Below, piece by piece: positions 1,702 through 40,876 of a stretch of 64,000 nucleotides of DNA. Position 1 is the stretch's first letter. Each line of letters begins with the position of its first letter. Location of the stretch: assembly GCA_017458335.1 (NCBI GenBank), contig JAFTFT010000016.1:1-64000 (forward strand). The letters are read 5' to 3'. The position numbers and the translations under genes were made by a program. Under the pieces are notes generated by a model that saw nothing but the letters and a program-made list of their open reading frames with translations, was not told the DNA's origin and made no database searches. This stretch comes from Oscillospiraceae bacterium. Lineage in GTDB: Bacteria > Bacillota > Clostridia > Oscillospirales > Oscillospiraceae.

Positions 1702-3441
1702 ATGAAAAAAAGCGCTTTAAAATGGAATCCTGTTTTCTGGGGACTGTTTCTGATCTGCGGTATCCTGGTCCTTTATAAATGCAGATACGGATATGCGTAC
1801 AGTGATGAGTGCTTTTATCTTACGATCCCGTATCGGCTTACCCAGGGGGACCGGCTCATTCTGAATGAATGGAATCCGGCTCAGCTGGCAGGCTTTCTGT
1901 TGTATCCGGCTGTTTCCCTGTACCTCCGTATCTTTGGGTCGACAGAGGGGATTGTTCTTGCTTTCCGATATCTCTATGCCGCTCTTCATCTCATTTCAGC
2001 GCTGATGCTGTACGGTAAGCTGAGAAAAAACACGGAAATCGGTGCATGTATTCTGGCGATTCTGTATACGATCTATGCACCGTATGGCGTGATGGCACTT
2101 TCATACAATTCCATGGGCCTCGGAACCATGATGCTGGCACTTGCTTTTCTCTGCTCGCCTCCGCGTGGAAGAGACTGCTATTTGTCGGGAGTGTTCTTCG
2201 CGCTTTCCGTCATGTGCTGCCCGTACCTGGCAGTGCTCTGGCTGATCCTGCTGCTGATGTACGCCATGAAACTCGAACCCTGGACAGACAGAGACGGCGG
2301 GAGGGCGAAAGCGGGGTTCCTGCATTGGAATTCCGGAGTCATGACCGTCGCGGCAGTTTTCTTCGGATACCTGTTCAGCAGAATTGCACCCCGCGATGTG
2401 ATTCGGTTCCTGCCCTTTATTCTGCATAACGCGGAGCACCCTGATCTGCCTTTTCTGACGGTTGTAAGGCTGTATTTTCATTATTTGTTTGAGATCCGAC
2501 TTGTTGCCCTGAGCTGGGGGATTACGGCAGGGCTCTTTGTAATTGAGCTTCTGGACAAAAAAAGACAGGCGCATAAGCTCCTGTACTTTGCCGCCGCGTC
2601 CTGCCTGGCGGTGATTCAGATCTATTATTTTGTCAGGATCGACCGGTATATCAATTATCTGGTACTTCCGCTGAATACGATGTTTCCTCCGGTCTACCTG
2701 CTGTGTGACAACGCGGAAATGCGAAGAGAGCGGAAAAAGATACTACTCGGGTATATGATTCCGGGATTTATCTATTCTTTTTGCTGTCACTTTGCATCCA
2801 ATCAGAGACTGTATACCATCAGCTCGACTTCTTTTATCATGCTGATGGGAACCCTCATGCTTACCGGAATGTTTCTGCAGAATGAGCTGAGAAGAACAGA
2901 TCAAAAAGGACTGTGCGCCAAAGCCGCCGTGGCTGTGGGCTGCCTGGTCTTTGCACTCGAAATCGGATCACTGGCGTATCTGCGTTATACCGGTGTGTTC
3001 TGGGAGAGGTCCATGAAGGAACAGACCATCCTGGTGAATGCCGGACCGGAAAAGGGAATTCTCGTTTCCGAGAGAGCCTTCCTGGAATATGATCGATATA
3101 TGACTGAGGTCGCGAAATATATCGGGAAGGGTAAAACGGTATTTCTGGCAAGAGAGACGGTGCCGTATCTGATTGCCCAGAATGAAATCGCGGCACCGTC
3201 TGCCTGGATGAGCGGAAGCGCAGATGATCAGATCAACAGCCTGAGAGAATACTACGCAATCAATCCTGAGAAAGAACCGGATTACGTCTATTGCTCAGAA
3301 AAGTATCAGGATGTGGCGGCGACCCTCTGGGAGAATGAAGAGTATACAAAAAACGTTACGGAATCCGGGAATATTGTGTTCTGTCGAAAAATGTCAGCGT
3401 CGCAGCTTCCTGCCGCAGAGGACCAGAAGGTAGACGACTAA
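1702..3441 (+). CDS. Polytopic membrane glycosyltransferase (GT-C / ArnT-like)
   Basis: A 579-residue protein with about ten or more hydrophobic spans. An acidic DE pair sits in the first extracytoplasmic loop (YAYSDECFYLTIPYRL, about residues 30-45), as in GT-C enzymes that use polyprenyl-phosphate sugars. The last about 150 residues are soluble, probably an extracytoplasmic domain. It follows a GtrB-like transferase by 52 bp with AGGGAAGAG before the ATG, so the pair probably makes and then uses a lipid-linked sugar to decorate a wall polymer. The sequence is divergent and no symbol is given. Its last 48 bp overlap the 3' end of the convergent acyltransferase gene. Confidence 0.75.
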   Translation: MKKSALKWNPVFWGLFLICGILVLYKCRYGYAYSDECFYLTIPYRLTQGDRLILNEWNPAQLAGFLLYPAVSLYLRIFGSTEGIVLAFRYLYAALHLISALMLYGKLRKNTEIGACILAILYTIYAPYGVMALSYNSMGLGTMMLALAFLCSPPRGRDCYLSGVFFALSVMCCPYLAVLWLILLLMYAMKLEPWTDRDGGRAKAGFLHWNSGVMTVAAVFFGYLFSRIAPRDVIRFLPFILHNAEHPDLPFLTVVRLYFHYLFEIRLVALSWGITAGLFVIELLDKKRQAHKLLYFAAASCLAVIQIYYFVRIDRYINYLVLPLNTMFPPVYLLCDNAEMRRERKKILLGYMIPGFIYSFCCHFASNQRLYTISSTSFIMLMGTLMLTGMFLQNELRRTDQKGLCAKAAVAVGCLVFALEIGSLAYLRYTGVFWERSMKEQTILVNAGPEKGILVSERAFLEYDRYMTEVAKYIGKGKTVFLARETVPYLIAQNEIAAPSAWMSGSADDQINSLREYYAINPEKEPDYVYCSEKYQDVAATLWENEEYTKNVTESGNIVFCRKMSASQLPAAEDQKVDD

Positions 3442-4503
3442 GGACAGAAGCAGAGAGATCAGAATGGTTTTCCCCGCATACGGGACGAAATAGAAGATTC
3501 GGCTCGGGACTTCCGGCACTGCGGCGGCAAGCTGGGGGTATGTGACCTGATCCGGAATCCAGGAGAGAATATACGCGCCGAAGGTGAGATCGGAAATCAG
3601 CGCAATCGTCTTCCGCAGCCATTCGGGAGCGGGCTTATAACGGATGGAATTGATGAAAAGGAAAATCAGCGTTGCATTTATGGCATTCTGAAATCCCCAT
3701 CGTGCACACCAGCTGCCCCAGATAAAACAGACGCTGTAGCTGCGCCAGTAGTTGAACAGACCGGCGAGCAGAAGGGAAGCTGTCATAAGAAGGAAAAGCT
3801 TTCCGGAAGGGAGTTCTTTTACTTTGACATTCCTGCGGATATAGGCTCCGATAAAATAGTAGGTAATGGGATGCAGATCTGTCCACCAGTCAGGGACCAG
3901 ACCGTCAAAGGTATCTGTGACCCAGGGATGGAGAATCGCTCCGTCCACATGCCAGTTCCAGATGTTGAAAACGGTGGGAACCACTGTGAGGACCATAAAG
4001 ATGACAACAATAATGATCTGGGATTCTTTTGTTTCCGCGGAATGCCAGATGTGATTCAACAACGGAATCATAAGATACAGGCCGATATACATGTTGACAT
4101 ACCAGGAATATCCGCCGTAACTGAGCCCAAAGAGCAGAATGTCCCGGAACATCAGATCCTCTTTCAGCCAGAAAACGCGAAACAGAAAGATGATCACGCA
4201 GCACAGAAGATAAGTCGCGATTACTTTGAAAAGCCCGGCATAAAAGGCTTTGAGCGCTTTCCACTGGAGCGGGATCGTTTTCACACTCAGCAAATACCCG
4301 GTGAGCAGCATGAAAAGAGGTACTGTATTCAAAAAGACGGCTCGCAGCATCACCATACAGGCCATGCGCAGACCGATCACGGGAACGGTATAGAAACCCG
4401 CATTAAGAAAAAAATGTGCGGAGGGAACAAACAGAAAGGCGACGATCCTCGTTAAATCCAGACCGATATCTCGATTGCTGCGCTTCGGTGTAATGCTTTC
4501 CAT
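3394..4503 (-). CDS. Acyltransferase family 3 membrane protein (OafA/WecH-like)
   Basis: 369 residues from the chosen ATG; an upstream ATG at 4542 would add 13 residues. I chose 4503 because NRDIGLDLTRIVAFLFVPSAH follows closely, matching the usual acyltransferase-3 start, and a purine-rich GAGAAAG precedes it. About ten membrane spans are visible. The family transfers acetyl or succinyl groups to sugars of surface polysaccharides; the catalytic His is probably the one in VPSAHFFL. It faces the GT-C gene tail-to-tail and lies 57 bp downstream of the sugar dehydrogenase gene on the same strand. The acceptor glycan is not known. Confidence 0.85.
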   Translation of the reverse strand: MESITPKRSNRDIGLDLTRIVAFLFVPSAHFFLNAGFYTVPVIGLRMACMVMLRAVFLNTVPLFMLLTGYLLSVKTIPLQWKALKAFYAGLFKVIATYLLCCVIIFLFRVFWLKEDLMFRDILLFGLSYGGYSWYVNMYIGLYLMIPLLNHIWHSAETKESQIIIVVIFMVLTVVPTVFNIWNWHVDGAILHPWVTDTFDGLVPDWWTDLHPITYYFIGAYIRRNVKVKELPSGKLFLLMTASLLLAGLFNYWRSYSVCFIWGSWCARWGFQNAINATLIFLFINSIRYKPAPEWLRKTIALISDLTFGAYILSWIPDQVTYPQLAAAVPEVPSRIFYFVPYAGKTILISLLLSLVVYLLVLCGRKLRR

Positions 4504-40300: not shown

Positions 40301-40578
40301 ACAAAAAGAAGTAAGCCCCGACTGCAACATCCATTCGTACAATCAGGGCTTACTTCTCTGAATTTTTCGTATCTAACATCCTGAGACCTCGCTTTCTTTC
40401 GGCAGTCTCCGTTGCGTCATTCCTGCAATCACTTCTCAAACATCTTTCTCTGCGGCTCGCGCATGTCCCGTAAGTGAGACCTTCTTGTGTTGGAACGTCG
40501 CCATCCTGATCCTCAACGGAGCTCACCCAACCCCACTTCGTCGGGTGCTTTCAGAAGTTCTGACTTCTTTGTTTTGTT
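40301..40578 (-). ncRNA. Predicted structured noncoding RNA of about 280 nt, family not assigned
   Basis: No credible protein lies here. On the minus strand a possible promoter (TTGCGC, 17 bp, TATCAT; 40613-40585) precedes a foldable sequence. It contains a small AGAAGT/ACTTCT hairpin and a rod of nested helices closed by CTCCGTTG/CAACGGAG. Inside the rod are CGTTCC/GGAATG and TCACTT/AAGTGA. The RNA ends in a long terminator: GAAGTAAGCCC and GGGCTTACTTC extended by a GATTGTA/TGCAGTC helix that pairs only on this strand because of G-U pairs, then TTTTT. I saw no RNase P, tmRNA, SRP or T-box signature. 6S or raiA-type RNA are candidates I could not test. Confidence 0.6.
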
Positions 40579-40876
40579 GGCATTATGATACACGAAAACA
40601 GCCTTTGGCGCAAGAGGCAGTTTTTGACAAAAATCACAATCCGGTTTTGTACAGAACGTCAAAATTTGTTGGTGATTCATAAAAATGCTTGACCGTATCT
40701 GGATGGTTATAGTATGATACAAAACTGCGGGCGAATTGTCACCCGTTTTTAACTTGCCATTCAAACTCTTTTTTGGTAAAATGATTTACATAATCTATAT
40801 GGTCAGATTGTAGTATTTCATATTTTACTATATAAGAGGCGTTCTGCGTTTACGTAAGAACGTTGGGGGCAAGCAA
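40579..40876. other. AT-rich intergenic region before the lysozyme-domain gene
   Basis: No gene is supported. It holds the plus-strand promoter at 40689-40718, a short hairpin with a T run (40728-40750), and an imperfect hairpin with TTCT/AGAA arms near 40840-40863 ahead of the GGGGGC ribosome site of the next gene. Confidence 0.5.
40689..40718 (+). promoter_or_regulatory. Promoter upstream of the lysozyme-domain gene
   Basis: TTGACC (40689-40694), 18-bp spacer, TATGAT (40713-40718). About 30 nt of transcript later there is CGGG...CCCG followed by five T (40728-40750), a possible early terminator. Confidence 0.5.

Follow-up and report, generated by a model that had tools for sequence, protein, structure and literature searches.

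A putative nine-codon gene of Clostridia whose stop codon lies within a terminator hairpin

Layout of the element

The window analysed here is a stretch of 64,000 nucleotides from an Oscillospiraceae bacterium (contig JAFTFT010000016.1, assembly GCA_017458335.1). Between rpsU and a gene with a Phage_lysozyme2 domain it carries a minus-strand element, the features of which are collected in Table 1. An initial annotation had described at this place an independently transcribed noncoding RNA, equipped with a possible promoter, nested helices, a long 3′ hairpin and a second terminator, in a region without a credible gene. The element is real and lies where it had been drawn, and both the 3′ hairpin with its T run (here T1) and the second minus-strand terminator (T2) are present. 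The supposed lack of a gene is not borne out: the most conserved part of the region, 40390-40350, is a Shine-Dalgarno sequence followed by an open reading frame (ORF) of nine codons.

Table 1. Features of the element and its flanks in the window.
Feature	Position	Strand	Remarks
rpsU (Pfam Ribosomal_S21)		plus	one flank of the element; convergent, next gene after the element
Gene with Phage_lysozyme2 domain			other flank of the element
T-rich block TTGTGATTTTTGTCA	40625..40639	minus	5′ of the −35; similar in close relatives (by eye, 30-relative alignment)
Promoter-like TTGCGC-N17-TATCAT (−35, 17-nt spacer, −10)	40613-40585	minus
5′ hairpin GAAGTCAGAACTTC	40554..40567	minus	in distant relatives often a Shine-Dalgarno sequence and 2-3-codon ORF at the equivalent place
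Hairpin P0	40524..40548	minus	double changes in 5/8 pairs, yet only 61-77% of cells paired
Helix P1, 5′ strand GCTCCGTTG	40514..40522	minus	covaries with 40414-40407
Helix P1, 3′ strand CAACGGAG	40407..40414	minus	covaries with P1 5′ strand
Helix P2, 5′ strand GACGTTCC	40492..40499	minus	68-74% of cells paired, some double changes
Helix P2, partner inside AGGAATGACGC	40424-40414	minus
Conserved hairpin GTCTC-ACTTAC-GGGAC	40465..40480	minus	one pair with U-A/C-G exchange 23:22
Small hairpin TGCGCGAGCCGCAG	40450..40463	minus	86-88% of cells paired (40.7% in another alignment with its pairs placed differently)
Shine-Dalgarno core GAGG	40387..40390	minus	7 nt 5′ of the start codon; invariant in 50-sequence alignment
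Nine-codon ORF ATG TTA GAT ACG AAA AAT TCA GAG AAG TAA (MLDTKNSEK)	40379-40350	minus
Terminator hairpin T1	40357-40307	minus	T run to 40303; 5′ arm holds the ORF stop codon
Second intrinsic terminator T2 (GCCGCCGAAAGGCGG TTTTTTG)	40203-40182	minus

Transcription would start near 40578 on the minus strand. The T-rich block further upstream is possibly an UP element or a regulator site, and its information content is low when all members of the family are included. Folded as a whole, the 278-nt minus strand reaches −92.3 kcal/mol (z −4.6), a value equalled by none of 200 shuffles. The part comprising the ORF and terminator has by itself a z of −5.5 and the 5′ domain one of −2.6, with three of 200 shuffles equally good, so that the advantage over shuffled sequence comes mostly from T1 and less from the 5′ domain. 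The stretch between the 5′ domain and T1 is predicted to be mostly open, except for a weak hairpin of five pairs around the Shine-Dalgarno sequence and start codon, on account of which the Shine-Dalgarno site may be partly closed.

The nine-codon reading frame

The ORF pattern with which relatives were gathered demanded M first, L or F second and D third and left the later residues free; since positions 1-3 were thereby partly fixed, the unforced facts about the ORF are those concerning positions 4-9 and length. The sets counted as n = 192 (n = 187 for the scan for T2) contain three ORFs counted twice, the distinct ORFs numbering 189, while the set of 152 used in the analysis of neighbouring genes represents 151 distinct ORFs. 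Nine codons is the length of 173 of the 189 distinct ORFs. Residue 5 is Lys in 189 of 189, encoded by AAG or AAA; residue 4 is T, I or N, except for F in two; residue 9 is mostly Lys, with Asn at the C-terminus of only three of 192 ORFs; and residue 2, at a position partly fixed by the pattern, is Leu through five different codons.

Across codons 4-7 the ratio pN/pS is 0.27 in frame against 1.06 and 1.34 in the other two frames for the genus set; with every member included the values are 0.40 in frame and 1.57 and 1.13 out of frame. Across codons 2-7, the first two of which the pattern partly fixed, it is 0.21 against 1.56 and 0.52. Gaps within the ORF in a 50-row alignment (in L013, L016, L029, L096 and L153 of the gathered loci) are 3 nt each, and the spacer between Shine-Dalgarno sequence and ATG varies, being 7-11 nt in the relatives and 13 nt in one. 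As far as sequence comparison can tell, then, selection of the coding type acts on the nine-codon ORF. Codons 4, 5 and 6 nearly always begin with A, so conservation of the ORF may in part be owed to initiation or to pairing of the RNA and not to the peptide. The same conserved A explains equally well the prevalence of aspartate-family residues at positions 3-6, and a sensor of aspartate-family tRNAs was accordingly set aside as a candidate.

Matches to a covariance model, obtained without the ORF pattern, include forms with a shifted start (MTLDIKNEQK, MKLDLKSEQK and VKLDFKSEQK) and diverged forms read from the alignments (MIEPKNSGK, MLEPNNFIG and, from a TTG start, AEPKSEEN); MLDxK is therefore not universal. 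The string MLDTKNSEK occurs in no paper of the open-licence PMC literature searched, a result that does not prove the family to be unpublished.

In the window copy the nine-codon ORF is also the tail of a 58-residue open frame beginning with GTG (40350-40526, minus strand). A longer protein was considered and rejected: 132 of 192 relatives have an in-frame stop codon no more than 20 codons upstream and 172 have one no more than 40 codons upstream, and in the nearest relatives, L188 and L189, such stops lie 22 and 23 codons upstream of the ORF.

The stop codon and the terminators

The relation of ORF to hairpin was established by an ORF-only search of the gathered loci for complete frames of 3-15 codons, in which no hairpin was required and stems were sought over a wide range; some of the loci had been gathered with a model that includes the hairpin, those of the genus without it. 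The ORF pattern alone gave 221 complete short ORFs, and a stem of at least 8 bp was found near the stop codon in 219 of them (at least 12 bp in 216). The two ORFs without a stem, in L107 and L176, both look like chance occurrences. The whole stop codon lies within the stem in 211 of the 219, and 208 have 18-24 nt between ATG and stem. What is more, the stop codon changes together with the bases opposite it: among the 189 distinct ORFs, TAA stands opposite TTA in 81 and TGA opposite TCA in 70, and the TAG stops face paired or wobble partners. T1 as a whole shows double-sided changes at 15 of its 18 pairs (50 sequences), and at least three T occur in the 8 nt past the stem in 179 of 189.

Within 120 nt downstream, and mostly 5-35 nt on, a second terminator was found in 109 of 187 relatives, against four of 187 in single shuffles; the scan used found none in the other 78. 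The sequence evidence thus indicates a stop codon that is paired and covaries with its partner, a fixed spacing from start codon to stem, a common tandem of T1 and T2, and a unit that stands alone. Because the ORF is under coding-type selection and its stop codon covaries with the hairpin partner, the proposed reading of the element as noncoding is unsupported, a conserved ORF being among the findings that the initial annotation had named as speaking against it; that it is a separate unit, of about 275 nt, is supported. In L135 and L252 the embedded stop codon has been lost and the ORF continues into the hairpin, to 14 and 15 residues respectively.

The folded 5′ domain

Two of the three helices drawn in the initial annotation, CTCCGTTG/CAACGGAG and CGTTCC/GGAATG, match helices that covary in relatives. 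The third, TCACTT/AAGTGA, belongs to the single-sequence fold only, since in relatives its bases build instead the local covarying hairpin GTCTC-ACTTAC-GGGAC. In 18 relatives similar to the window copy, a structure of 48 pairs spanning the whole unit, T1 included, has 83.3% of cells paired, against 78.3% in shuffles and 32-47% when the structure is slid along the alignment, and 42 double-change cells against 13.9 in shuffles. For the 5′ domain alone the corresponding figures are 77.5% against 71.6% and 30 against 13.9. A model-fitted alignment of 47 rows gives 80.4% against 63.0% paired and 220 against 78.6 double-change cells, figures that need caution because such an alignment leans towards the model. 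The loop CTT of the hairpin GTCTC-ACTTAC-GGGAC may pair with an AAG just upstream to form a pseudoknot: this candidate is 88.4% paired, against 83.2% in shuffles and still 84.8% after a slide of one column, and has a single covarying pair (A-U, G-C, U-A).

Covariation of the domain, the absence of which would have spoken against the initial annotation, is thus seen in relatives, whereas in a more diverse set of 26 5′ domains RNAalifold, applied to a MAFFT alignment, found no common structure. The single-sequence folds of two distant domains, in L008 and L158, are no better than shuffles, and in the short relatives, such as L145, L156 and one copy in L168, not much of the 5′ domain is left. The domain is altogether less conserved than the ORF and T1. 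Within the genus, 34 matches to a model of the 5′ domain were obtained, of which 32 have the ORF after them, one is truncated where its contig stops and one is a false match within a gene; the domain was therefore not found without the ORF in the genus, while the ORF does occur without the domain.

Promoter, genomic context and known RNA families

A promoter had been thought possible on the strength of the window copy, and the relatives support this: 153 of 184 have, in front of the element, a promoter shape that scores above the cut-off, whereas shuffled upstream sequence gives 43-50 of 184. As about a quarter of the shuffled sequences also score, the promoter is supported overall but is undecided for any single copy.

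Analysis of the neighbours of 152 members, made with a simple ORF caller whose output includes spurious ORFs, placed the nearest downstream ORF on the same strand in 66 cases and on the opposite strand in 74, the upstream figures being 65 and 69. No conserved neighbour family was found among the 152 beyond small clusters. Hence, in agreement with the initial annotation, the element is not a leader; and with near-even neighbour strands and no shared neighbour the unit looks like a gene of its own. In L071 the element is followed on its own strand by a Gut-1 sRNA (RF01706; 2186-2262, minus strand) and a tRNA (2527-2600, minus strand), and in L091 by a T-box leader (3686-3940, minus strand).

No RNase P, tmRNA or SRP signature had been recognised in the initial annotation, and a covariance-model search agrees: of 4227 Rfam families, 6S and raiA among them, none matches in the window at the gathering cut-off, and the best of ten sub-threshold matches in a local Rfam search has an E value of 0.066. 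Twenty relative loci gave eight Rfam matches, none overlapping an element. Individual candidates were likewise rejected. The genome has five matches to tmRNA (RF00023), one of them above the cut-off at 161 bits, and all sit on other contigs; its sole match to 6S RNA (RF00013) is on contig C14 (53 bits); and raiA/ModT (RF03072) has no match in the window and none in the genome at E ≤ 0.001, though the built-in controls were equally silent.

Distribution

A second copy, 71% identical, is present in the same genome. Searches with the window sequence matched 29 of 60 genomes, all within the genus, and a search of the genus matched 75 of 102 genomes, with one to three copies detected per genome (own genome included in both counts). 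Covariance model R1, built on the 3′ part, matched 40 of 245 genomes and 24 of 127 genera in the order, and 15 of 245 genomes in the class, with strong matches in families outside the order (own genome again included); in five of the 40 and two of the 15 genomes every match has an E above 1e-4. A pattern scan of a collection of species genomes returned at least 118 stretches, and among the matches listed at least 103 are members by the test of ORF plus stem. The 80 titles among the matches listed are mostly of Clostridia metagenome-assembled genomes, and the clear outsiders, L088, L099, L107 and L112, hold no member. Some genomes have two or three copies, and copies may stand in tandem, as in L065, L126 and L153. 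The element thus looks like a free-standing small gene repeated across many gut Clostridia.

An origin from plasmids or phages was considered and rejected. By blastn there was no match in a plasmid collection of 72,556 records or a phage collection of 50,697 records, and five pattern matches on viral contigs either start longer proteins or lack the hairpin.

Comparison with known systems

The gene mccA, for microcin C, belongs to the smallest class of bacterial gene and has a terminator directly behind its tiny ORF, where the ribosome reportedly affects both termination and RNA stability. It is the first gene of an operon that also encodes its modifying enzyme, and its peptide ends in Asn. The element described here differs in having no conserved neighbour, in that the stop codon itself lies in the hairpin, and in that the last residue is mostly Lys. 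In possible mode of action mccA is perhaps the nearest known thing, but neighbour gene and last residue set the element outside its type. In the trp, thr, erm and CmlA leaders, too, a short ORF immediately precedes a terminator or switching hairpin or lies within it, whereas the element lacks a conserved downstream gene and is often closed by a second terminator. Likewise tmRNA is a structured RNA that holds a short reading frame with its stop codon in a helix, whereas the element is equipped with a Shine-Dalgarno sequence and a start codon of its own and has a terminator at its end.

The dual-function small RNAs SgrS, RNAIII, SR1 and VcdRP are small independent transcripts combining structure with a short ORF; that of VcdRP, at 29 amino acids, compares with nine codons here. 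The element shows selection on its ORF, a promoter-like site and a terminator, and may give an independent transcript with a translated short ORF. The raiA motif or ModT RNA (RF03072) is, according to PMC11706538, likewise an independent structured RNA of Clostridia with a terminator, and has a longer isoform produced by read-through to a further terminator; the main text of that paper contains neither 'open reading frame' nor 'sORF'. Each named family tested differs from the element in a defining feature; should a function be found, the element may prove to be a variant of dual-function small RNA.

Proposed mode of action and alternatives

The reading that we favour, and regard as more probable than not, is that the element is translated, as a micro-gene whose terminator and ribosome influence one another; its transcription, translation, control of T1 and function we infer. 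From its own promoter the unit would give a transcript of about 275 nt, comprising a folded 5′ domain, a Shine-Dalgarno sequence and a nine-codon ORF ending within T1. A ribosome initiating on this ORF would, judged by the size of the ribosome footprint, just fit into the 18-24 nt between start codon and T1, and could get to the stop codon only by melting T1. Such contact could be the working part of the element: a ribosome on the ORF would decide whether T1 closes, and so whether transcription ends at T1 or at T2, and would influence the stability of the RNA, the nonapeptide MLDxKxxxK being made meanwhile. The variable 5′ domain, absent from some relatives, would tune the contact between ribosome and T1, and peptide, RNA or both would act in the cell. 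It is the geometry, and only the geometry, that suggests control of T1 by the ribosome, and a slow ribosome may arrive at T1 only after RNA polymerase has gone by. A wider version of this proposal, possible but on balance doubtful, would see in the family a class-wide set of Clostridia micro-genes in which ORF and terminator form one object, often primed by a mini-ORF: the ribosome would switch the 3′ end or lifetime of the RNA, the RNA would sense or store ribosome activity, and the nonapeptide would be a by-product or a signal.

The alternatives divide over which part of the unit does the work. A structured small RNA acting in trans would owe its activity to the 5′ domain, with the short ORF merely recruiting ribosomes that protect or turn over the RNA. 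Covariation of the 5′ helices (double-change cells against shuffles: 42 against 13.9 for the whole unit, 30 against 13.9 for the 5′ domain alone and 220 against 78.6 in the model-fitted alignment), the company that the domain keeps with the ORF in the genus, and the multiple copies of some genomes (two or three, at times in tandem), known also from other sRNA families, all speak for it; yet the domain is conserved less than the ORF and T1, is slight in L145, L156 and one copy in L168, yields no RNAalifold structure in the 26 diverse domains, and in L008 and L158 folds no better than shuffles. We consider this account unlikely. If instead the unit were a sponge for ribosomes or initiation complexes, strong Shine-Dalgarno sequences and ORFs of three and nine codons would, in certain conditions, hold or cycle ribosomes and the peptide would be irrelevant. 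This would suit the many relatives with two micro-ORFs and the three MFR frames that precede the longer ORF in L263 (both described below), but coding-type selection and the constant Lys at position 5 favour a role for the peptide or its codons, and the window copy has no 5′ mini-ORF; a sponge therefore seems improbable.

Two further readings would make the ORF part of a larger system. A leader-peptide attenuator, in which a ribosome stalled on the ORF would open T1 and allow a downstream gene to be read, shares the geometry of a nine-codon ORF ending in an intrinsic terminator, with the stop codon wholly in the stem in nearly all cases. Even so, the nearest downstream ORFs (140 members) are divided almost equally between the strands, the next gene in the window is the convergent rpsU, and a second terminator follows T1 in more than half of the relatives scanned. 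The ORF has K-N in common with KNAD, which PMC10192921 gives as the chloramphenicol-dependent arrest sequence of the CmlA leader, but its most conserved residues are L-D-x-K and not the KNAD-like part. We rate attenuation as a shade less probable even than the sponge. A precursor gene of the microcin C type, finally, would yield large amounts of a ribosome-protected transcript with a tiny ORF, and enzymes encoded elsewhere would modify the peptide. The tiny ORF, the terminator at its end and the ribosome-sized spacing are all in keeping with this. The modifying enzyme of microcin C, however, needs a C-terminal Asn, which is rare in the family, and the 152 members have no conserved adjacent enzyme gene, so that this reading appears very improbable, the least credible of those weighed here.

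Should the favoured micro-gene be expressed, it would follow that a bacterial gene can be as small as nine codons and free-standing, in one to three detected copies per genome, and that so tiny a gene has been kept across its order, probably Oscillospirales, and in families of other orders of the class. It would also be a natural system in which to study bases that serve ribosome and intrinsic terminator alike, in a unit short enough to be transferred to a laboratory host and dissected codon by codon. A survey of ORFs in small RNAs covered 10-50 amino acids and states (PMC5521070) that ORFs of fewer than ten amino acids were missed; as that survey began at ten residues, nine-codon genes can drop below the floor of such screens.

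The 5′ mini-ORF and other micro-ORFs

In many members outside the subgroup of the window copy, the 5′ end of the transcript takes the form AAAGGGTGATACC-ATG or similar and opens an ORF of two or three codons, most commonly MYR; no such mini-ORF is present in the window copy. A scan of 150 members with a loose pattern returned 47 three-codon and 15 two-codon 5′ ORFs, a few of them false (such as L002 and L023), and nothing in 81. In 18 chosen genomes the mini-ORF pattern occurred seven times, in all seven cases upstream of a member with the nine-codon ORF. In L263 (upstream of 1615, minus strand) a longer micro-ORF is preceded by three copies of the three-codon ORF MFR, and every copy has a Shine-Dalgarno sequence to itself.

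Micro-ORF transcripts with other sequences probably occur in the order as well, to judge by a different tandem unit at about 1450-1640 in L286 and L287 (G130:C6 and G066:C5), on the strand of the match. Its two ORFs, MNVLALRYKN of ten codons and MF of two, are each placed behind GGAGGTACGRTCCAATG, and a hairpin with a short T run comes after them.
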